Below, one piece after another: positions 3,486-38,026 of a DNA stretch of 41,417 nucleotides; position 1 is the first letter of the stretch, and every line of letters starts with the position of its first letter. The DNA comes from Candidatus Kapaibacterium sp. (lineage in GTDB: Bacteria > Bacteroidota > Ignavibacteria > Kapaibacteriales > UBA4661): NCBI GenBank assembly GCA_004292595.1, contig RDXM01000122.1:1-41417 (forward strand). The letters are read 5' to 3'. A program made the translations under genes and the position numbers. Under the pieces are notes generated by a model, which saw only the letters and a list, made by a program, of their open reading frames with translations, searched no databases and was not told where the DNA came from.

Positions 3486-5009
3486 TTAAAACGGTACTTC
3501 GTCGGTCGGGGCGGCAAGGGAAGCGTTGAAATTGGAAATGCTGGAAGCGAAGTCTGGTGCGGTGTCTGCGCCAAAGGTGAGATTTTCAAAGCGAGCATAT
3601 TCTTTCAAATATGCCACGCGCACCGTGCCGACGGGACCGTTACGCTGCTTGCCGATAATAAGCTCCGCAGTTCCAGCGGTAGTTTGTCCGTCGTCATAGT
3701 TTAGAAGTTCGTAGTGTTCGGGACGGTGGACGAACATCACCAGGTCAGCATCTTGTTCAATAGAGCCAGATTCGCGTAAGTCCGAGAGCATTGGGCGTTT
3801 GTCGGAGCGTGCTTCCACACCACGATTAAGCTGGGAAAGCGCAATAACAGGGATGTTTAGCTCTTTTGCAATTTGCTTTAAGGAGCGGGAAATGGTCGAA
3901 ATCTCGCGCTCGCGGCTTTCATTTTTCGCGGTTGGCGCATTCATCAGTTGGAGGTAGTCAATCATCACCACGCCGATATTTTGCTCTGCCTTCAAGCGAC
4001 GGCATTTGGCGCGAAGCTCCATGACGGAAAGCGAAGCACTGTCGTCAATAAAAATAGGCGTTTTTGCCAAGCGGTCCATTTTCTGTGCAAGCGGACCAAG
4101 TTCGTTTTGGTCAATGTCGCCACGCATGATTTTCTGCACGTTAATCCGTGCTTCCGCGCTTAGAAGGCGCATGGAAAGCTGTTCGGCAGCCATTTCGATT
4201 GAAAAGAATGCTACGCCAACATTCGAGTCCATAGCGATATTGCGTGCAATACTGAGTGCGAGAGCAGTTTTGCCCATTGACGGACGCGCTGCAATGATGA
4301 GCAAATCTGATTTGCGCAAGCCACCAATCATATCGTCCAACTTAACAAAACCCGTTGAAATGCCGAGATTTTCTTTATTCTCACCATTGACCATTGAGGC
4401 AATGGTAGCAAACGTCCCTTTGGCGAGATCCTTCATGCTGATATAGCTTTTGCGCAAGCGTTGTTCGGCGATGCAGAAAATCTCGCTTTCGGCTTTGTCG
4501 ATTTCATCCAGCGCGTCGGTGGAGAGGTCGTAGCAGCGTGCCAAAATATTCGATGAAGCATCAATAAGCTGGCGTTTCAGCGCGTGTTCCTGCACGATGC
4601 GGGCGTATTGGTCAATGTTCGCTGCGGTAGGGGTATTTTGGTTGATTTGTGCAAGATAAAATGAGCCGCCAATAGCCTCTAAGAGGTTGTGATTCCTCAA
4701 TTCTACACCGAGCGAGACAATATCAATCGTGATATTGCGTTCCGACATCCAGAGCATTAACTCAAAAATTTTCTTATTTTTTTCTTGATAAAAAGAGTCT
4801 GGAATCAGCACTTCTACTGACTTCGAGAGAGCGGCTTTATCAAGCATAATTGAGCCAAGTACCGCCATTTCAGCTTCTGTTGAGTGCGGCGGCACTTTAT
4901 CGCCAATAGTGGCGAGCTGTAAAACGTTATTAGAAGAACGCTTGCTTTTGGTTAATTGCGAATATGCAATTTCCGCATCACCACGTGTTTCGTCGAGGAA
5001 ATTTGACAC
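3486..5009 (-). CDS. dnaB: Replicative DNA helicase DnaB
   Basis: DnaB is the hexameric 5'-3' helicase that is loaded at the origin and drives the replication fork. In this 507-residue protein the N-terminal helical domain begins near PPHSTEAEMAVLGSIM (about residue 40), the Walker A motif is ARPSMGKT at 241-248, Walker B is VVMIDYLQLM, and the C-terminal RecA-like motif reads LSQLNRGVEARSDKRP followed by DLRESGSIEQDADLVMF. No intein is present, although dnaB genes often carry one. It starts at ATG 5009 with AAAGG 13 bases upstream. The 215 bases upstream hold a DnaA-box-like cluster. The gene heads a minus-strand run with the J-domain and HAD genes. Confidence 0.97.
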   Translation of the reverse strand: MSNFLDETRGDAEIAYSQLTKSKRSSNNVLQLATIGDKVPPHSTEAEMAVLGSIMLDKAALSKSVEVLIPDSFYQEKNKKIFELMLWMSERNITIDIVSLGVELRNHNLLEAIGGSFYLAQINQNTPTAANIDQYARIVQEHALKRQLIDASSNILARCYDLSTDALDEIDKAESEIFCIAEQRLRKSYISMKDLAKGTFATIASMVNGENKENLGISTGFVKLDDMIGGLRKSDLLIIAARPSMGKTALALSIARNIAMDSNVGVAFFSIEMAAEQLSMRLLSAEARINVQKIMRGDIDQNELGPLAQKMDRLAKTPIFIDDSASLSVMELRAKCRRLKAEQNIGVVMIDYLQLMNAPTAKNESREREISTISRSLKQIAKELNIPVIALSQLNRGVEARSDKRPMLSDLRESGSIEQDADLVMFVHRPEHYELLNYDDGQTTAGTAELIIGKQRNGPVGTVRVAYLKEYARFENLTFGADTAPDFASSISNFNASLAAPTDEVPF

Positions 5010-5149
5010 AGAAGTACCTTTGAAATCGGAAAAGTAAAATCAAGAAATGTGTGTGCTATATGGCGCATATTACCGAGCAAATTACAAAAAGCCTCGCACA
5101 ATACTGCACACAGAACGAAGGCTTTCTTTTTTAGGAACTTTTTCAGTGG

Positions 5150-5226
5150 TTTTCCACTTGTTTATGGAACATTATCCCCACAATTCTGCGTTATCCCCAA
5201 AGTTTTCCACATCGGTTTGTGGATTT
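5150..5226. promoter_or_regulatory. dnaB: Cluster of DnaA-box-like 9-mers upstream of dnaB
   Basis: Five 9-mers close to the DnaA box consensus TTWTNCACA lie within 77 bases: TTTTCCACT (5150), TTATCCCCA (5172), TTATCCCCA (5191), TTTTCCACA (5203, perfect) and, on the other strand, AAATCCACA (5218-5226). They lie in the gap between the dnaB start and the hisIE stop. Either DnaA controls dnaB transcription here or this is part of a replication origin. Three parS sites 6-11 kb away support an origin-proximal position. No strong AT-rich unwinding element is evident beside it. Confidence 0.5.
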
Positions 5227-5857
5227 ATTCTGCTGTTGAACGATTTTTCTTTGCATGGCGTTCCTGCAAGACAGATAAAACCTCATTCAGCGAGATATTC
5301 TTTGCTGCAAAAAGGACAAGCGTGTGAAAAAGTAAATCGGCAGCTTCGCCCTTGAAAAGCTCATCGTTGCTGTCTTTTGCCTCAATCACTATTTCGACGG
5401 CTTCCTCGCCAACTTTCTGTGCTATTTTGTTGATGCCACGCGCAAAGAGCTTGCTTGTGTAGGAATCAGGGCTTGGGTTCTGCTTGCGGTCAATGATGAT
5501 TTGCTCTAATTCATGCAGAAACGACGCGCTTTTGGGGATATTTTCCTCTTCAAAGCACGTATCTGCGCCCGTATGACAGGTTGGTCCTTCGGGATGTGCT
5601 TTGATGAGCAGCGTGTCGTCGTCGCAATCCTGCATGATTGCTTGTACGCGGAGGAAATGTCCCGACGTTTCGCCTTTTGTCCAGAGGCGAGATTTGGAGC
5701 GGCTGAAGAAGGTTACGATGCCTTCTTTTTCTGTTTTTTCCAGAGCTTCCGCATTCATATAGCCGAGCATCAAGACTTTATCGGTGTTTGCGTCTTGAAT
5801 AATTGCTGGGATTAAGCCGTTTTGTTTGTCGAAAGCGAGTTTTTGTGCGGTGTGCAT
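5225..5857 (-). CDS. hisIE: Bifunctional phosphoribosyl-AMP cyclohydrolase / phosphoribosyl-ATP pyrophosphatase
   Basis: This enzyme catalyses steps two and three of histidine synthesis. The N-terminal HisI half carries SRSKSRLWTKGETSGHF and the metal site DCDDDTLLIKAHPEGPTCHTG (residues 77-97; D77/D79/D81-type ligands and C94). The HisE half (from about residue 113) shows KVGEEAVEIVIEAKD and EAADLLFHTLVL, the MazG-like metal-binding helices. The length of 210 is normal for the fused enzyme. ATG 5857 (MHTAQKLAFD) is the natural start. Of the other his genes only hisH (12834-13436) is in this window, so the pathway is not one operon here. Confidence 0.95.
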   Translation of the reverse strand: MHTAQKLAFDKQNGLIPAIIQDANTDKVLMLGYMNAEALEKTEKEGIVTFFSRSKSRLWTKGETSGHFLRVQAIMQDCDDDTLLIKAHPEGPTCHTGADTCFEEENIPKSASFLHELEQIIIDRKQNPSPDSYTSKLFARGINKIAQKVGEEAVEIVIEAKDSNDELFKGEAADLLFHTLVLFAAKNISLNEVLSVLQERHAKKNRSTAE

Positions 5858-10426: not shown

Positions 10427-10625
10427 CGAGGAGAGATTTTTGTGGTACGTGATACCTTCAAAACTCAACTCTAGGAATGTTCTGGTGTTTTTGTGGCACA
10501 AATGCTTATTCATGGAGGTTATTCGGTTGATGTGTAAGCATTTGTGCAGCCCAGCACACCATTCGTGGCGTTCCGATAAATTTTTTTTGAATTTTGTTCC
10601 CCTTTTGCTCACCTTTCCTCGCATC

Positions 10626-11729
10626 ATGCAACCTATCCCTTTTCTCGACCTCAAAGCTATCAATCTTGCTCACCAAGCCGCTCTGCAAGCCGCTTTTACG
10701 GAAGTCTTGCACAGTGGTTGGTTTATTTTGGGCAATAACGTTACAAAATTTGAAGAAGAATACGCGAAATTTTCTGGCACACAGCACGCAATCGGCGTTG
10801 CAAACGGCTTGGATGCGCTGCACATTGCACTGAAAGTGTTGGGAATTGGTGCGGGTGATGAGGTGATTGTTCCATCGAATACCTACATTGCAACTACGCT
10901 CACGACATCATTTGTCGGCGCAACGCCTGTTCCTGTCGAGCCTCGCGCTGCGACGTACAACATCAATCCCGACCTCATTGAAGCTGCGATTACGCCGCGC
11001 ACCAAAGCAATTATGCCGGTGCATCTTTACGGACAAGCGGCAGAAATGGATGCGATTATGGCGATTGCAAACAAGCACGGAATTCACGTGATTGAAGATA
11101 ATGCTCAGGCGCAAGGCGCGTTCTACAATGGTCGCCCGACGGGAAGTTTTGGGGCAATCAACGCAACGAGCTTTTATCCAGGCAAGAATTTGGGCGCACT
11201 TGGCGATGCTGGTGCAATCACCACCGACAGCGCAGATTTCGACAAAAAAGCCCGTTCATGGCGTAATTACGGCTCGCACAAGAAATATTACAACGAAGTG
11301 CTTGGCTTTAATTCCCGCTTGGACGAGCTGCAAGCCGCATTACTCCTCGTGAAACTGCCCTTTTTGTACAACGACAACGCCGAGCGTGAGCGCATTGCCA
11401 GCCTCTACGATGAGCATTTACGCGGTGTTGGAGACATTATCACGCCCGTTGTTGCAGAAAATGCTACGTCGGTGTTTCATCTCTACGTCATTCGCACGAA
11501 AAAGCGCGATGTGTTACAGGAACATCTCACGAAGCATGGTATTGGCACAATGATTCACTATCCCGTGCCACCGCATTTACAAGAAGCGTACAAACACGCT
11601 GCTTGGAAGCAAGGTCAATTCCCGCTTGCAGAGGAAATTGCCGAAACCTGTCTTTCCTTGCCGATATTTCCGATGATGACAAATGCTCAGGTTGAACAGG
11701 TGTGTGCGGCGATTCGTAGCTTTTTCTAA
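10626..11729 (+). CDS. DegT/DnrJ/EryC1/StrS sugar aminotransferase (FdtB/QdtB-like)
   Basis: This PLP enzyme transfers an amino group to a keto nucleotide sugar. The 367-residue protein starts MQPIPFLDLKAIN, the family N-terminus, and has the lysine that holds PLP at K187 in SFYPGKNLGALGDAGA, the aspartate in HVIEDNAQAQGA, and the substrate region GFNSRLDELQAALL. The FYPGKNLGALGDAG version and the C-terminal HYPVPPHLQEAY are typical of dTDP-3-amino-3,6-dideoxyhexose transaminases. A sugar 3,4-ketoisomerase that would make its substrate is encoded at 17252-17698, which supports that role. The frame is open further upstream to 10401, overlapping clpX, but family alignment places the start at ATG 10626. 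The exact sugar is not known. Confidence 0.9.
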   Translation: MQPIPFLDLKAINLAHQAALQAAFTEVLHSGWFILGNNVTKFEEEYAKFSGTQHAIGVANGLDALHIALKVLGIGAGDEVIVPSNTYIATTLTTSFVGATPVPVEPRAATYNINPDLIEAAITPRTKAIMPVHLYGQAAEMDAIMAIANKHGIHVIEDNAQAQGAFYNGRPTGSFGAINATSFYPGKNLGALGDAGAITTDSADFDKKARSWRNYGSHKKYYNEVLGFNSRLDELQAALLLVKLPFLYNDNAERERIASLYDEHLRGVGDIITPVVAENATSVFHLYVIRTKKRDVLQEHLTKHGIGTMIHYPVPPHLQEAYKHAAWKQGQFPLAEEIAETCLSLPIFPMMTNAQVEQVCAAIRSFF

Positions 11730-11752
11730 ATTCTTGTCAATATCTTTGTAAA

Positions 11753-11768
11753 TGTTCCCCGTGAAACA
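11753..11768. other. Probable parS site (one mismatch)
   Basis: TGTTCCCCGTGAAACA matches the ParB-binding consensus TGTTNCACGTGNAACA at all but one fixed position (C for A at position 7). It is intergenic, between the aminotransferase and the catalase-like gene. Confidence 0.6.
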
Positions 11769-11809
11769 AGTTCACAGGATTGCACTCAATTCTCTTTCCC
11801 ACTTTTCCC

Positions 11810-12799
11810 ATGATTGCTATGGCTCATCAACCTTCGACCGATTGGCGCGAAATCACGCAGCCCAATGAAGAACAACGCTATGCGGAATATGCTCGGCAGT
11901 TCTCTGAAATACAAGAACGCAAATCAGCAAAACATGGTAAAGGTCGCGGATTGCATCGTAAGCAAATACTCGGCTTGCCTGCGACGCTTGAGGTGTTGCC
12001 GAACCTTCCCGACCATGCACGGGCAGGGCTTTTCGCCCAAGCAGGAACATATCAAGCATTAGTGCGCCTTTCCAATGGCGGCTCTGCTCACGCACCCGAC
12101 AAAGTGCCGGATATTCGCGGCTTTTCCTTCAAAGTGCTTGGCGTACAAGGCGCATCAGCACTGGGCGGCGAGACTTCTGCACAAGACTTTTTGCTGATTA
12201 ACCGCGAAGTTTTTGGCATGAAAGGAAGCGCGGAATTTGCTGGCTTGGTGAAAGCTGCCGAAGGCGGTCCGTCGGGGCTGCTGAAACATTTTATCCGTCA
12301 AAATGGCTTCTTTGCTGGCTTCAAGAAAATCAAGGAATTGCAAGGCTCAATGGCAAAACCCTTTCACGGCTTTGCGGCACATACTTTCTTCTCTTCTGCG
12401 CCTATTTCATGCGGCAAGTATGCTGTTCGTGTGCGCCTTGTGCCAGAGGCAAGCAATGGTGCGCCCGCCAACTCGTCTGAGGATTGGTCGGCAGATGTCA
12501 TCCAGCGTTTGGAGAAATCTTCACTTTCCTATAACGTGCAAGTGCAGTTTTTTGTCAGCGAAAAGCTCACACCGATTGAGGACGGCTCGGTAAATTGGGA
12601 AGAATCGTTTGCGCCATATTTGACCGTTGCACGCCTCACGATTCCTCATCTCAGCGAATGGGCAACCGAGCGCGATGCAATCCAAACCCGCACCGAACAA
12701 GGTACATTCGACCCGTGGTGCGCCCTTGCCGAACACCGTCCGCTTGGCGACATTATGCGGGCGCGGAAAGTGGTGTATTATCAAAGCCAGAAAAATCGT
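11810..12799 (+). CDS. Catalase-family heme protein (small, SrpA-like)
   Basis: The coding frame runs to the stop codon at 12809-12811 (last coding residue GAV). The protein belongs to the short catalase-related family: YQALVRLSNGGSAHAPDKVP and DIRGFSFKVLGV correspond to the distal heme side, SAQDFLLINREVF to the next conserved block, and RPLGDIMRARKVVYYQS near the C-terminus holds the arginine and tyrosine expected near the proximal heme site. It lacks the N-terminal arm and flavodoxin-like domain of full catalases. Family members are heme peroxidases or catalases of uncertain substrate. No signal peptide is visible, so it is cytoplasmic. ATG 11810 and 11819 are both possible; an upstream TTG (11780) is unlikely. 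hisH follows after 22 bases. Confidence 0.85.
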
Positions 12800-12833
12800 G
12801 GTGCAGTATAATATTTATTTTGACAGGAATGTT

Positions 12834-13436
12834 ATGAATCTCGCTATTGTTCGCTATAACGCTGGAAATATTCAATCGCTCCTTTACGCGCTGGAACGCT
12901 TGAACATCACGCCAACTCTTTCCGATGACCCAAACGTTTTGCATTCTGCCGATAAAATTATCTTTCCGGGCGTTGGCGAGGCGCGGTCTGCGATGACGTA
13001 TCTTCGTGAGCGTGGGCTGGATGAAGTTATCACAAGTCTCAAGCAACCAGTCTTGGGAATTTGCGTCGGGATGCAGCTTTTATGCGCTTCTTCAGAAGAA
13101 AACGCCACGACGTGCATGGGAGTTTTTTCGGCAACGGTGCGGAAATTCGCGCCCGCGTCAGAGCAAAAACAAGCCTTCAAAGTACCGCAAATTGGGTGGA
13201 ACGAATTGACTGTAACGGAGCAGCATCCTTTATTTGGCAATCTTCCCAAAAAGCCGTTTGTGTATTATGTGCATAGCTACGCCGCCGATTGTGTCCCAGA
13301 AACGATTGCAACAACGGACTATATTGCGCCCTTTAGCGCGGCTCTGCATATGGATAACTTTTATGCTGTGCAGTTTCACCCTGAAAAAAGTAGTGAGGTT
13401 GGGTCGAGAATTTTGCAGAATTTTCTTGAACTTTAG
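12834..13436 (+). CDS. hisH: Imidazole glycerol phosphate synthase, glutaminase subunit
   Basis: HisH releases ammonia from glutamine for HisF in histidine synthesis. The protein is 200 residues, normal for the family. The class I amidotransferase nucleophile is C77 in GICVGMQLL, and the His-Glu pair is in QFHPEKSSEVG near residue 182. PGVG (residues 45-48) forms the oxyanion loop. ATG 12834 is preceded by AGGA. An in-frame upstream extension overlaps the catalase-like gene and is rejected. hisF is not adjacent, which is unusual. Confidence 0.95.
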   Translation: MNLAIVRYNAGNIQSLLYALERLNITPTLSDDPNVLHSADKIIFPGVGEARSAMTYLRERGLDEVITSLKQPVLGICVGMQLLCASSEENATTCMGVFSATVRKFAPASEQKQAFKVPQIGWNELTVTEQHPLFGNLPKKPFVYYVHSYAADCVPETIATTDYIAPFSAALHMDNFYAVQFHPEKSSEVGSRILQNFLEL

Positions 13437-13465
13437 TGTGTAAATGTATGTGAAGCCTTCTTTTG

Positions 13466-13491
13466 AAAAGCCGTCTTTGTACGGCTTTTTT
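13466..13491. terminator. Bidirectional terminator between hisH and thiN
   Basis: AAAAGCCGT (13466-13474) pairs with ACGGCTTTT (13481-13489), giving A-run/T-run flanks on both strands. It lies between two convergent genes, so it can serve both. Confidence 0.8.
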
Positions 13492-13506
13492 ATTGCACTG
13501 TTTTTG

Positions 13507-14187
13507 TTAAGCAATTATGGGCATATACGGCAAGTTCGCTTTCAGAAAAAGGAAGAGTTCTCCTGCGTGAATTTCCAGCCTAACCTTTGGAGCAGTCGCT
13601 CTATTCCTTGCTCCTTCTCGCCTTCCCAGCTCTAATTCTTCATTGTTTAAGTTCCATTCTAAACCTGATGTAGTAAGCCGCACCTTTGGTTGTGGAATGA
13701 GTGAAATCATATCATCTGCTCCAGCATCAAATTGAATGGATTCTCGAACAGAAAAGGCAGTTTTTCCGTTATCAAAAATGGCAAGATTTAGTGCTTGCGT
13801 TGAAGCACTTTCTCGTTTGGTAATGCTCCAATTATTTAGTGTGTGGTCGAGGTCGCCACCGTGTAAACCACAAACAAGAATATTTTTACTCCCTCTCTCT
13901 CGGACGAAAGCAATCGTCTTTTCGTAATCGGTCGAATTTTGGTCACTTACTTCATGGATAATAATTCCTTTTTGTTCTCGCCAGAAGTTAAGCTCCTCAA
14001 AAATGGAGTCCAAATCTCCCACAATATAGCTCGGCGTTATTCCTCGTTCTCGAAGTTTCTTTGCTGCGCCGTCTGCTGCTGCTATGGGAATGGGGATCAT
14101 TCGCTCAAAAAAAACTTTTTCGGGAACAGTACCATTCAAACAGATAATGACATCGGGAAGGACAAATTGTATTGTTTTGAAGCTCAT
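13507..14187 (-). CDS. thiN: Thiamine pyrophosphokinase
   Basis: This enzyme transfers pyrophosphate from ATP to thiamine to give the cofactor. The N-terminal domain carries AAADGAAKKLRERGITP, then YIVGDLDSI and DQNSTDYEKTIAFV, the three metal- and substrate-binding motifs of the family (the D-x-D-S and T-D-x-E-K blocks). HGGDLDHTLNN continues the active site. Length is 226 residues. GTG 14193 is an alternative start; I prefer ATG 14187. A perfect parS site begins nine bases upstream of this start. The region 13.5-16.3 kb is more AT-rich than its neighbours. Confidence 0.88.
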   Translation of the reverse strand: MSFKTIQFVLPDVIICLNGTVPEKVFFERMIPIPIAAADGAAKKLRERGITPSYIVGDLDSIFEELNFWREQKGIIIHEVSDQNSTDYEKTIAFVRERGSKNILVCGLHGGDLDHTLNNWSITKRESASTQALNLAIFDNGKTAFSVRESIQFDAGADDMISLIPQPKVRLTTSGLEWNLNNEELELGRREGARNRATAPKVRLEIHAGELFLFLKANLPYMPIIA

Positions 14188-14195
14188 AACCACAA

Positions 14196-14211
14196 TGTTT
14201 CACGTGGAACA
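14196..14211. other. parS site (ParB binding), perfect consensus match
   Basis: TGTTTCACGTGGAACA fits TGTTNCACGTGNAACA at every fixed position. It lies directly upstream of thiN, in the gap before the GNAT gene. Confidence 0.88.
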
Positions 14212-14299
14212 TTTACTATCATTGTGTACGTTGTTTATATCATTTCGTGCTTCTGAAGAAGCATACCTACATTTCTATCAGTATATTCTATCATTACAC

Positions 14300-14827
14300 T
14301 CAAAGTACTTTCATCATTAACACTTCGTCAATGTATCCTGTTTCGAGTTTGAGTGCGCGATACTCTACGCCATATTGGATAAAGCCCAAGTCTTCATAAA
14401 ATTTTTGCGCCGAAGAACCAGGCGGCGTAACAGTAATTATCGCTTGTTCACAACCAGCGTCTTGCTTTGCTGCTGTCAAAAGAAGCTCTGCAATGTGCTT
14501 TCCAATTCCATGCTTCCGTGCTGTAGGCTTTACATACATTCCCCAAAGCGTTCCCTTATGCCGACGCTTCACCATATTGTAGGGACATGTAAAGCATCCC
14601 ATTCCAACGAGATTACCTTCAGGTGTAAATGCACCTAAAGCAAAATTAAAGGGATATTTAAGCATTCGTTCAAAATAATGCTCTTTGTCGAGAAGAGGAG
14701 AGGCATTATAGGATGCGTAATCTGGACCGAATGCTTCGGGTTCATTCATCAACGCTTCGGCGCGAAGTTGAACAAACATAGTAAAATCCTCTTCTTCAAG
14801 AGGGCGATAAAGTATTGATGCTTCCAT
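14300..14827 (-). CDS. GNAT-family N-acetyltransferase
   Basis: This 175-residue protein has the GNAT fold signature: LWGMYVKPTARKHGIGKHIAELLL is the acetyl-CoA pyrophosphate loop (motif A, R/Q-x-x-G-x-G/A variant RKHGIGKH), followed by SSAQKFYEDLGFIQYGVEY (motif B). The start segment ILYRPLEEEDFTMFVQLR is typical. The acetyl acceptor is unknown; relatives acetylate amino groups of small molecules or proteins. ATG 14827 (MEASILYRP) fits the fold; an extension to 14896 is possible but less family-like. It is flanked by two parS sites on either side of its neighbourhood. Confidence 0.85.
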   Translation of the reverse strand: MEASILYRPLEEEDFTMFVQLRAEALMNEPEAFGPDYASYNASPLLDKEHYFERMLKYPFNFALGAFTPEGNLVGMGCFTCPYNMVKRRHKGTLWGMYVKPTARKHGIGKHIAELLLTAAKQDAGCEQAIITVTPPGSSAQKFYEDLGFIQYGVEYRALKLETGYIDEVLMMKVL

Positions 14828-14968
14828 AATGTACGTTTTTTCTTTACTAAAATTCTGTTTGTAATGCAAATGTTCGTTTGATGCTTGATGATACATGGGG
14901 CGGCAGTAATAATCTTTCTTGAAACATTATCAGAAAGATGATGTCCTTTCAGGAAGAACAGGCTATCA

Positions 14969-15922
14969 TTACAATGCCCATTCGTGATGACCATCTATCT
15001 GCAACTGTCTGCGCATGGTGAAAAGTCCGCTTTCTATACCCGAAAATCGGATGCCAAACATTGCTTCTGCCTTGAGCGGAATCATACCGCCGCGCATTGG
15101 ACGTAATGCAGCTTGATGTAGCTCTACAGTTGTTATGGGCTGAATAAGGCTTGCATCCTGTTTGAATACTTTGGCAATCATTTGGGCAAAATCATAGCGG
15201 GAACACCAGTCTGCACCGCCAACATGAAACAAACCTTTTGTTCGGGTATGAATTATTTTGTTCGTGAAATATGCTATATCGTCAATCAAAGTCGGATTAG
15301 AAAATTGGTCATTGACCACACCGAAAGGCTTTTTTTCTGTGAGCTTGTTGAGTACCCACATCACAAAGTCTGGTTTCAAAAGATGTGTCGCACCGTACAA
15401 AACATTTGTCCGAATAATAGTCCAATCAATATTTCCGCCAATACACGCATTTTCACCAGCAAGTTTTGTTTTGGCATAATATCCCAGAGGATGCGGCATA
15501 TCGGTTTCAATATACGGTCCATGTACGCCATCGAACACATAATCCGTTGAAAAGTGAATCAAGTGTGCATCCACTAATCGGCACACAGCAACAATATTTT
15601 CTACGCCCGAAACATTTACATTCCACGCAAGTTGCCGCTCGCTTTCAGCTTTATCAACGTTGGTGTAAGCGGCGGTATTTACGATAATATTTGGCTGAAG
15701 CTCTAAGCAATACTCTTTCAATTCCTTCCGATTTGTAAAATCACATCTCGTGCTTGGGGGCATATTATTATCATATTGTGAATGCCCAGAAGTCATAAAA
15801 TACCAATCGGCAATAGACGGCAGACGGCGACAAACACGCCAGAGTGCTTCGGCTATTTTACTGCCAGAGCCGATAATAAGAACCTTAGGTTTTTCCTTTG
15901 GTATAGTGTGAAATGTGTGCAT
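14969..15922 (-). CDS. RmlD-like dTDP-4-dehydrorhamnose reductase / SDR sugar reductase
   Basis: This 317-residue extended SDR has the RmlD layout: NTAAYTNVDKAESE, LIHFSTDYVFDG, and the catalytic YYAKTK motif (Tyr-x-x-x-Lys), ending with the substrate-binding region RPMRGGMIPLKAEAMFG. RmlD enzymes reduce dTDP-4-keto-6-deoxyhexoses with NADPH. The nucleotide loop reads GSGSKIAEAL rather than GxxGxxG, and no rmlA, rmlB or rmlC is in the window, so the substrate may be another keto sugar. Start ATG 15922. It presumably works with the surface sugar genes at 10.6 and 17.2-19.8 kb. Confidence 0.83.
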   Translation of the reverse strand: MHTFHTIPKEKPKVLIIGSGSKIAEALWRVCRRLPSIADWYFMTSGHSQYDNNMPPSTRCDFTNRKELKEYCLELQPNIIVNTAAYTNVDKAESERQLAWNVNVSGVENIVAVCRLVDAHLIHFSTDYVFDGVHGPYIETDMPHPLGYYAKTKLAGENACIGGNIDWTIIRTNVLYGATHLLKPDFVMWVLNKLTEKKPFGVVNDQFSNPTLIDDIAYFTNKIIHTRTKGLFHVGGADWCSRYDFAQMIAKVFKQDASLIQPITTVELHQAALRPMRGGMIPLKAEAMFGIRFSGIESGLFTMRRQLQIDGHHEWAL

Positions 15923-16095
15923 CGCAGTAAATTTAAAGAGTAATCAAAAAGAGTCGTTGAAAAGAGTTAGCAAAAACAATACTCAACGATAAAATACTCA
16001 CTCCATCGCAATAAATCAATACATTTTGCATTGCCCCTCCAATATAAAAATGAAGGCTTTATTCTTCATCGTATATTACCTACTTTTACATCTGA

Positions 16096-16121
16096 AATAA
16101 TGTTCCACGTGGAACATTATT
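16096..16121. other. parS site, perfect 16-mer inside a 26-bp perfect palindrome
   Basis: The core TGTTCCACGTGGAACA (16101-16116) is identical to the ideal symmetric parS sequence, and the symmetry extends five bases on each side. It lies in the 354-base gap between the divergent RmlD-like and SPFH genes. That gap otherwise holds only AT-rich sequence with a short GTAATAAAA direct repeat near 16210, likely promoter DNA. Confidence 0.92.
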
Positions 16122-16276
16122 TGTGAAGATGATAATGCCGCTTGTTTCAGTTTGTAAATATGCAAAAAGAGTGTAATTTGTTGGACGAAAAATAACGAAA
16201 AAAGTACGTTGTAATAAAACTGTAATAAAAACACACCTATTTCATCCTCAACTTTTTACAAATATCAGGAGACGTT

Positions 16277-17209
16277 ATGGATTCAATGATTGGTTTTGTG
16301 GTTAGTTTTGTGGTCGTTCTTCTTCTTCTCTTTAGTGCATTCGTAACGGTGCAACAAGGAACGGTTGCTGTCATTACAATTTTTGGGAAATTTCAGCGTG
16401 TAATGAATCCAGGCTTGAACATCAAAATTCCCTTTATTGAAACGGTCTTTCGGCGCGTTTCGGTGCAGAACCGTTCAGCAGAATTGGAATTTCAGGCAAC
16501 AACAATAGACCAAGCAAATGTTCATTTTACAGCAATGCTCCTTTTTTCGGTCGTAAATCATGCGGAAGAAACTATCAAAAATGTAGCGTTTAAGTTTGTT
16601 GATGAGCAGAATTTTATGCAAGCATTGGTGCGCTCCGTGGAAGGCTCGGTACGGGGGTTTGTGGCAACAAAAAAGCAGTCGGAAATTTTGGCATTGCGCC
16701 GTGAAATTGTCGAAGATGTAAAAGACCAGCTCGACCACACGCTGGAAGGTTGGGGGTATCATCTCATTGATTTACAAATGAACGACATTACTTTTGATGA
16801 AGCCATTATGCGCTCTATGGCGCAGGTAGTGGCATCGAATAATCTCAAAGCAGCAGCAGAAAATGAAGGTCAGGCATTGCTTATTACCAAAACAAAACAG
16901 GCGGAGGCGGAAGGAAATGCTATTCGCATTGCTGCCGAAGCAGAGCGCCAAGCGGCGCAGTTGCGCGGTCAAGGTATCGCGCTTTTCCGCGAAGAAGTTG
17001 CCAAAGGCATGACTCAAGCTGCAAAAGAAATGCAAGCTGCGCAAATGGACACCTCTGCAATTCTCTTCTCCATGTGGACGGAATCGCTCAAGCATTTTGC
17101 AGAATATGGCAAAGGAAATGTTATTCTTTTGGATGGCTCAACCGAAGGTATGGCGCGGACAATGCACCAAATGATGTCGCTCACGCAATTACAAGAGCAG
17201 AAAAAATGA
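16277..17209 (+). CDS. SPFH/Band 7 (stomatin/prohibitin-like) membrane protein
   Basis: This 310-residue protein has one N-terminal membrane segment (IGFVVSFVVVLLLLFSAF, residues 5-22), then the SPFH domain starting VQQGTVAVITIFGKFQRVMNPGLNIKIPFIE, and a long Ala/Glu-rich coiled coil (KQAEAEGNAIRIAAEAERQA). Such proteins oligomerise at the inner membrane and act as scaffolds for proteases (HflK/HflC-like) or membrane microdomains. CAGGAG lies upstream of ATG 16277, one of the better ribosome-binding sites here. It stands alone, without an NfeD partner, next to a parS site. Confidence 0.92.
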   Translation: MDSMIGFVVSFVVVLLLLFSAFVTVQQGTVAVITIFGKFQRVMNPGLNIKIPFIETVFRRVSVQNRSAELEFQATTIDQANVHFTAMLLFSVVNHAEETIKNVAFKFVDEQNFMQALVRSVEGSVRGFVATKKQSEILALRREIVEDVKDQLDHTLEGWGYHLIDLQMNDITFDEAIMRSMAQVVASNNLKAAAENEGQALLITKTKQAEAEGNAIRIAAEAERQAAQLRGQGIALFREEVAKGMTQAAKEMQAAQMDTSAILFSMWTESLKHFAEYGKGNVILLDGSTEGMARTMHQMMSLTQLQEQKK

Positions 17210-25522: not shown

Positions 25523-25600
25523 AGTGGCACAGACATTCCTGTCTGTGTTTGCCGCCTGAATCCAGCACCAATACTCACAGGCAAGAATGCCTGTGCCACT
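25523..25600. repeat. ~80-bp palindromic interspersed repeat, copy 2
   Basis: This has the same arms as copy 1 (AGTGGCACAGACATTCCTGT at the left, AAGAATGCCTGTGCCACT at the right); the centre GCCGCCTGAATCCAGCACC is in the opposite orientation to copy 1. It lies between the LipM-like gene and the membrane GT2 gene. An apparent N-terminal extension of the GT2 gene partly translates it. Confidence 0.9.
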
Positions 25601-33822: not shown

Positions 33823-33900
33823 AGTGGTCTGAGGCTTCTTGCCTGTGAGTATTGGTGATAGATTCAGGTGAAAAGCACAGACAGGAATGTCTGTGCCACT
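33823..33900. repeat. ~80-bp palindromic interspersed repeat, copy 3 (diverged)
   Basis: The right arm CACAGACAGGAATGTCTGTG plus CCACT is well kept; the left arm (AGTGGTCTGAGGCTTCTTGC) has decayed. The centre GAGTATTGGTGATAGATTCAGG has the orientation of copy 1. It lies between queE and sua5. Confidence 0.8.
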
Positions 33901-33957
33901 GAAGCCTGAATTCTGCTCAGTGTTCGGAGATTTTGCTGGATAGAACGGCTCTCATGC

Positions 33958-37889: not shown

Positions 37890-37948
37890 TACTGCTTCGT
37901 CCCTTTGTACACGACAAATCTCTTGAAGAGCGTATAAAATCAGGCTTC

Positions 37949-38026
37949 AGTGGCACAGACATTCCTGTCTGTGTTTGTCGCCTGAATCCCGCACCAACAC
38001 TCACAGACAAGAATGTCTGTGCCACT
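37949..38026. repeat. ~80-bp palindromic interspersed repeat, copy 4
   Basis: The arms are AGTGGCACAGACATTCCTGT on the left and GAATGTCTGTGCCACT on the right, nearly perfect. The centre TCGCCTGAATCCCGCACC has the orientation of copy 2. It lies between the plug-like gene and the large exported protein gene. Confidence 0.9.

Follow-up and report, generated by a model that had tools for sequence, protein, structure and literature searches.

What is the role of a cluster of DnaA boxes directly upstream of the replicative helicase gene dnaB? The initial annotation of this locus offered two answers, part of a chromosomal origin or a dnaB promoter under the control of DnaA. The locus lies in a stretch of 41,417 bp from Candidatus Kapaibacterium sp., analysed in full and called the window here, which corresponds to contig C96 of the own genome (G000), a draft assembly of 4.6 Mb in 199 contigs. 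The cluster and the genes around it are as follows.

3486-5009, minus strand: dnaB, replicative DNA helicase (GTG start at 5009; TIGR00665, 541 bits against a cut-off of 385)
5010-5224: hisIE-dnaB intergenic region, 215 bp by the open reading frame limits
5150-5158, plus strand: DnaA box TTTTCCACT, one mismatch to TTWTNCACA
5172-5180, plus strand: DnaA box TTATCCCCA, one mismatch to TTWTNCACA
5191-5211, plus strand: double DnaA box TTATCCCCA-aag-TTTTCCACA with a 3-bp gap, its members being TTATCCCCA at 5191-5199 (one mismatch) and TTTTCCACA at 5203-5211 (no mismatches)
5218-5226, minus strand: weak DnaA-box-like 9-mer AAATCCACA, two mismatches, overlapping the hisIE stop codon
5225-5857, minus strand: hisIE, upstream neighbour of dnaB (NF002747, 293 bits; stop at 5225)

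All five 9-mers that had been counted within two mismatches of TTWTNCACA, one of them perfect, are present at 5150-5226, 141-217 bp upstream of the dnaB start codon. The pair at 5191-5211 is the only double box of the window (2-3 bp gap, at most two mismatches in total). Over the whole window exact boxes are at expectation (6 vs a mean of 5.56 in 100 shuffles), and boxes with at most one mismatch number 139 against a shuffle mean of 110.5, above all 100 shuffles. With an exact box scored 3 and a one-mismatch box scored 1, the cluster holds the highest 70-bp score of the window (6), which was reached in 10 of 200 dinucleotide shuffles; its 80-bp score was reached in 15 of 200. The 200-bp score of 9, which includes a further box at 5323 within hisIE, was reached in none of 200 shuffles. 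Taken alone and judged within the window, the cluster is modestly, indeed barely, above chance, and the case therefore depends on comparison with relatives.

The base change shared by the two TTATCCCCA copies had been taken for a lineage-specific box variant. This stands in part, as the sister species G005 has TTATCCCCA and TTTTCCCCA at the two positions. However, TTTTCCCCA is also found at dnaB in G007 and in the M20 peptidase region of G002 (see below), so the change is not peculiar to the dnaB site of the window.

The comparison of dnaB upstream regions covered 60 genomes in which the dnaB locus was usable, nine from family f1 (the own genome among them) and 51 from elsewhere in the order. 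Each genome was represented by the locus of its best DnaB match (weaker second matches, several of which were far more dissimilar, were set aside). G008, where dnaB is split, was left out of these counts, and G040 is represented by 225 bp upstream. A double box, or a pair of exact boxes within 60 bp, is present in the 400 bp preceding dnaB in 8 of the 9 family genomes (in the own genome through the double box only) and in 4 of the 51 genomes outside the family (G021, G032, G047, G058), vs 0 of 60 far-upstream and 0 of 60 coding-start control stretches. Boxes are absent from the dnaB upstream region of the congener G003. Over the 60 genomes, 39 exact boxes lie upstream of dnaB vs 4 downstream and 3 far upstream; a reversed control pattern gave 4, 2 and 2, respectively. 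Conservation of the 9-mers in relatives, which the initial annotation had named as a check, is thus borne out by paired or double boxes across the family.

The same association is visible in 892 kb of family sequence, a set selected partly because it holds dnaA, dnaB and parS. It contains 20 double boxes vs 2 for the reversed control, and 6 of the 20 belong to the dnaB loci of five genomes. Pairs of exact boxes within 60 bp occur in 14 of its 2,190 bins, 12 of which can be assigned by position to dnaB (5), dnaA (4), parS (2) and the origin candidate of G003 (1). Among 1,716 background windows of 200 bp in the family, two score 7 or more; both are dnaB upstream regions (G004, G007), and the dnaB contigs of these two genomes are themselves part of the background set. 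By blastn, hisIE adjoins dnaB in the sister G005 and does not in G003, G004, G006 and G009; by eye, the far side of the dnaB upstream region also looks different in G001, G002 and G007. The boxes are present at dnaB in G004, G006 and G009 though hisIE is not its neighbour there, so the site tracks dnaB and not its surroundings.

Between the boxes and the gene, a promoter-like element (TTTTTTC-n-GCATATTGC) common to the congeners was recognised by eye about 60 bp downstream of the boxes; in the window's own genome it is degenerate. The predicted RNA structure of the dnaB leader is not more stable than shuffled sequences (z -0.28). The window also has a terminator-like inverted repeat (I12), which by eye is not obviously kept in G005, and a dispersed repeat of about 60-75 bp (1538-1598, 25523-25585, 33838-33912, 37935-38011), all four copies of which match a single place in G005 contig C60. 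Among the matches listed, the best named one for the DnaB protein is from an Ignavibacteriales MAG (48%), which would fit a position near Bacteroidota/Ignavibacteria.

The gene for DnaA is not in the window, as had been noted, and was located on another contig of the assembly. Its product matches TIGR00362 (539 bits) and has an intact recognition signature, GRDHTTV. We take this signature to be typical of a DnaA that recognises the canonical box, which the protein of this species should, judged from its sequence, be able to read. Upstream of dnaA itself, all eight genomes of the genus have two or more exact boxes within 60 bp. No such cluster was seen at dnaA in G009 or in G008 (868 bp in view), which represent the other two genera of the family, nor at 20 further dnaA loci, in a survey spanning 30 of the 60 genomes with dnaA. 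The gene serS lies near dnaA in two congeners (G006:C20:53555-54826, G001:C104:4739-6010), and serS and rpiB flank a DnaA-box-dense region in G018:C87 and G039:C1.

DnaA-box arrays also occur elsewhere in the own genome. Ten exact copies of TTTTCCACA with a 33-bp period lie upstream of a methyl-accepting chemotaxis protein gene (L205:7705-7857, corresponding to G000:C102:105704-105856), and seven exact copies with 12-nt spacing lie inside a methyltransferase-like reading frame (L202:3906-3986, in G000:C2). On both strands together, TTWTCCACA is found 174 times (100 of the 174 positions were inspected) vs 67 for the reversed pattern. The C102 array was rejected as the genome's own origin; third-position skew is plus on its left and mostly minus on its right, which is the wrong orientation.

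Is the dnaB site itself an origin? This would require negative skew to its left. In the window, positive skew extends about 5 kb to the left and 6 kb to the right of position 5.2 kb, and the genes on the left have third-position skews of +0.07 to +0.31; in a genome of 199 contigs this is a local test only. In G005, which has boxes at dnaB, the skew is likewise positive on either side, without a flip at the cluster. G006 keeps the cluster, and its skew is negative or zero in 23 of the 24 8-kb windows along a 196-kb contig (dnaB at 157-159 kb); G047, also with boxes at dnaB, is negative in 21 of 24 5-kb windows, on both sides of the gene. In G032 the skew is strongly negative until near parS (70 kb) and mixed from there; around dnaB (32 kb) it climbs to +0.049 only locally and is negative again in the windows that follow. 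The skew at dnaB is mixed in G004 (boxes), mostly positive in G042 (one exact box) and negative on both sides in G003 (no boxes). Two genomes are ambiguous: G007 has a skew of -0.042 around dnaB and of about +0.09 over the final 7.5 kb of its contig, which is short beyond dnaB, and G009 rises to as much as +0.027 right of dnaB. Apart from these two, the genomes examined have no lasting minus-to-plus change at dnaB, which speaks against an origin there.

Two further relatives (G012, G019) are single-contig genomes, sampled at 20 places of 20 kb each. In both, the sampled skew changes sign from minus to plus close to parS (123 kb in G012, 1.477 Mb in G019), not at dnaB or dnaA. Their dnaB regions hold one exact box (G012) or none (G019); since the cluster is missing, these genomes give a hint at the origin location in the order and are no test of the cluster. 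An origin at dnaA was also rejected in both (dnaA at 725 kb and 1.324 Mb), with a small separation in G019, where dnaA is merely 150 kb from the skew turn. Around dnaA in G005, G006 and G007 the skew is uninformative.

The parS sites of the window, which the initial annotation had placed 6.5-11 kb from the cluster, are indeed found there, two of them exact and these 9-11 kb away.

11753-11768: parS-like site, one mismatch
14196-14211: parS, exact
16101-16116: parS, exact

They are the only ones of the assembly at one mismatch or fewer, vs one match per strand for the reversed pattern. Nearness of dnaB and parS is not general among the relatives. On the same contig, and among the parS sites listed, the distance is 37 kb in G032, about 0.1 Mb in G053, 0.6 Mb in G019 and 0.93 Mb in G012; in most other relatives dnaB and the listed parS are on different contigs. 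Double DnaA boxes were seen directly beside parS in three family genomes (G005 at L200:4168-4229, G003 at L201:9233-9308, G009 at L284:9383-9411), and the window has no double box beside its own parS sites. In contig C75 of the sister G005, the parS segment of the window (10461-17207) has the opposite orientation with respect to the segment on its right.

A better origin candidate for the genus is found elsewhere. On contig C172 of G003, all seven 3-kb windows left of 21 kb have negative skew, the next one is at -0.002, and all 15 right of 24 kb are positive. The flip coincides with a DnaA-box-dense region of about 0.45 kb (the origin-like core, L201:5640-6090 in G003:C172; other loci L287, L288, L289 and L290), 3 kb from parS and upstream of a gene predicted from its sequence to encode an M20-type peptidase. 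A like box layout precedes the M20 gene in G002, G004, G006 and G007. A profile of 111 positions built from these four and G003 scores 85-106 bits in its five source genomes; G001, which did not contribute to the profile, reaches 93 bits. The core is thus present in 6 of the 8 genus genomes, with the skew checked in G003 only, and it is probably where the genus starts replication. In the window's genome and in G005 the best profile scores are 18-19 bits, at the dnaA boxes and without a real match (150 of 893 and 150 of 1,037 first-look candidates, respectively, were searched); G008, G009 and G018 gave 13-21 bits. The 1.5 kb upstream of the M20 gene hold no exact box in the own genome and 2 in G005, vs 5-7 in the five source genomes. 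The origin of the window's species has therefore moved, diverged or is missing from both assemblies. In Melioribacter, the available part of one report places the origin between dnaA and dnaN (PMC3534657).

That the cluster is the chromosomal origin or part of it, with DnaA unwinding the DNA beside dnaB and the exact parS sites 9-11 kb off, would agree with several of these observations. It is the densest DnaA-box cluster of the window, the assembly's only parS sites are in its neighbourhood, and the core of the genus was not found in this species or its sister. Moreover, with 200-bp scores of 13 (G004) and 12 (G009), two of the dnaB clusters are about as dense as the M20 regions of G002, G004 and G007 (12-13), so box density is no clean separator of the two types of site. 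Like a bacterial oriC, the locus has several intergenic DnaA boxes and parS in the neighbourhood, but no skew minimum was seen at the site, no AT-rich stretch stands out clearly beside the boxes (AT per 50 bp is 0.56-0.70 over 5001-5300), and in congeners possessing the core the genus origin would be elsewhere. The skew does not flip at the cluster in the window, G005, G006 or G047, and in G032 its shift is near parS. The five congeners G001, G002, G004, G006 and G007 combine boxes at dnaB with the M20-upstream core. The origin half of the initial annotation is accordingly not upheld. The dnaB site is unlikely to be the origin of the window's species, and we consider this explanation quite improbable; it is still alive mainly because the species' origin was not found and G007 is ambiguous. 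A variant, that the ancestor of the window's species and G005 lost the M20-upstream origin and the dnaB operator near parS became oriC, is very unlikely. If true, a DnaA-regulated promoter would have turned into an oriC, leaving helicase gene and origin adjacent.

Two explanations remain that deny the boxes a role in dnaB expression. The cluster may serve to titrate or reactivate DnaA, as a datA- or DARS-like site that stands in front of dnaB by accident and has no effect on its promoter. Clustered boxes away from the origin are compatible with this, and the genome has other arrays, for example that on C102. However, the boxes follow dnaB where hisIE is not the neighbour, and such a site is unlikely here. 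The clustering of AT-rich 9-mers by chance, which the 70-bp shuffles reproduce at times, is highly improbable when the boxes are kept with dnaB in 8 of 9 family genomes and occur at neither of two control positions in any of the 60 genomes.

The preferred reading of the cluster is an operator through which DnaA controls the dnaB promoter (probability about 0.75). This half of the initial annotation is supported by the conservation of the boxes with dnaB, the double-box geometry, the box cluster at dnaA throughout the genus and published precedents. It is limited by the lack of boxes in G003, their presence in only 4 of 51 genomes outside the family, the lack of a dnaA cluster at the loci surveyed beyond the genus, the degenerate promoter-like element of the own genome and the 10 of 200 shuffles at 70 bp. 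DnaA would bind the 77-bp cluster cooperatively, with the double box (5191-5211) as its anchor, and would adjust dnaB transcription so that helicase supply tracks DnaA activity. The sign of control is a guess, activation; with the boxes about 60 bp upstream of the promoter-like element in congeners, an activator fits better than a blocking repressor.

Precedents come from other bacteria. According to the available part of a review, dnaB of C. crescentus has DnaA boxes and belongs to the DnaA regulon (PMC8203912), and the accessible part of a study in M. tuberculosis reports DnaA binding upstream of dnaB and under-expression of dnaB in a weaker-binding mutant (PMC7738170). As in the window, the boxes or the binding are directly upstream of the helicase gene. 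In these two species DnaA dependence or binding was measured, whereas in the window it is predicted, and the comparison does not imply that the sites are homologous. The available portion of PMC11317965 states that a spacing of 2 or 3 bp between boxes is preferred by E. coli DnaA and that one box of the pair may be imperfect; the E. coli double boxes (for example at purH, polA and DARS2) resemble the predicted one of the window in being same-strand pairs with this spacing, but lie at loci other than dnaB. The part of PMC4447404 at hand contains nothing on a dnaB promoter. Our literature search found no paper linking DnaA boxes and dnaB in Bacteroidota and none on the replication origin of Kapabacteria.

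The cluster would therefore be a new lineage's example of an already known type of DnaA-dnaB control. The M20-upstream core, conserved in the genus but not found in two sister species, offers a case for studying origin movement. The operator itself would add a lineage beyond Caulobacter and Mycobacterium in which the helicase gene is apparently controlled by DnaA, alongside dnaA itself, and bears on whether bacteria have repeatedly tied helicase supply to the initiator.
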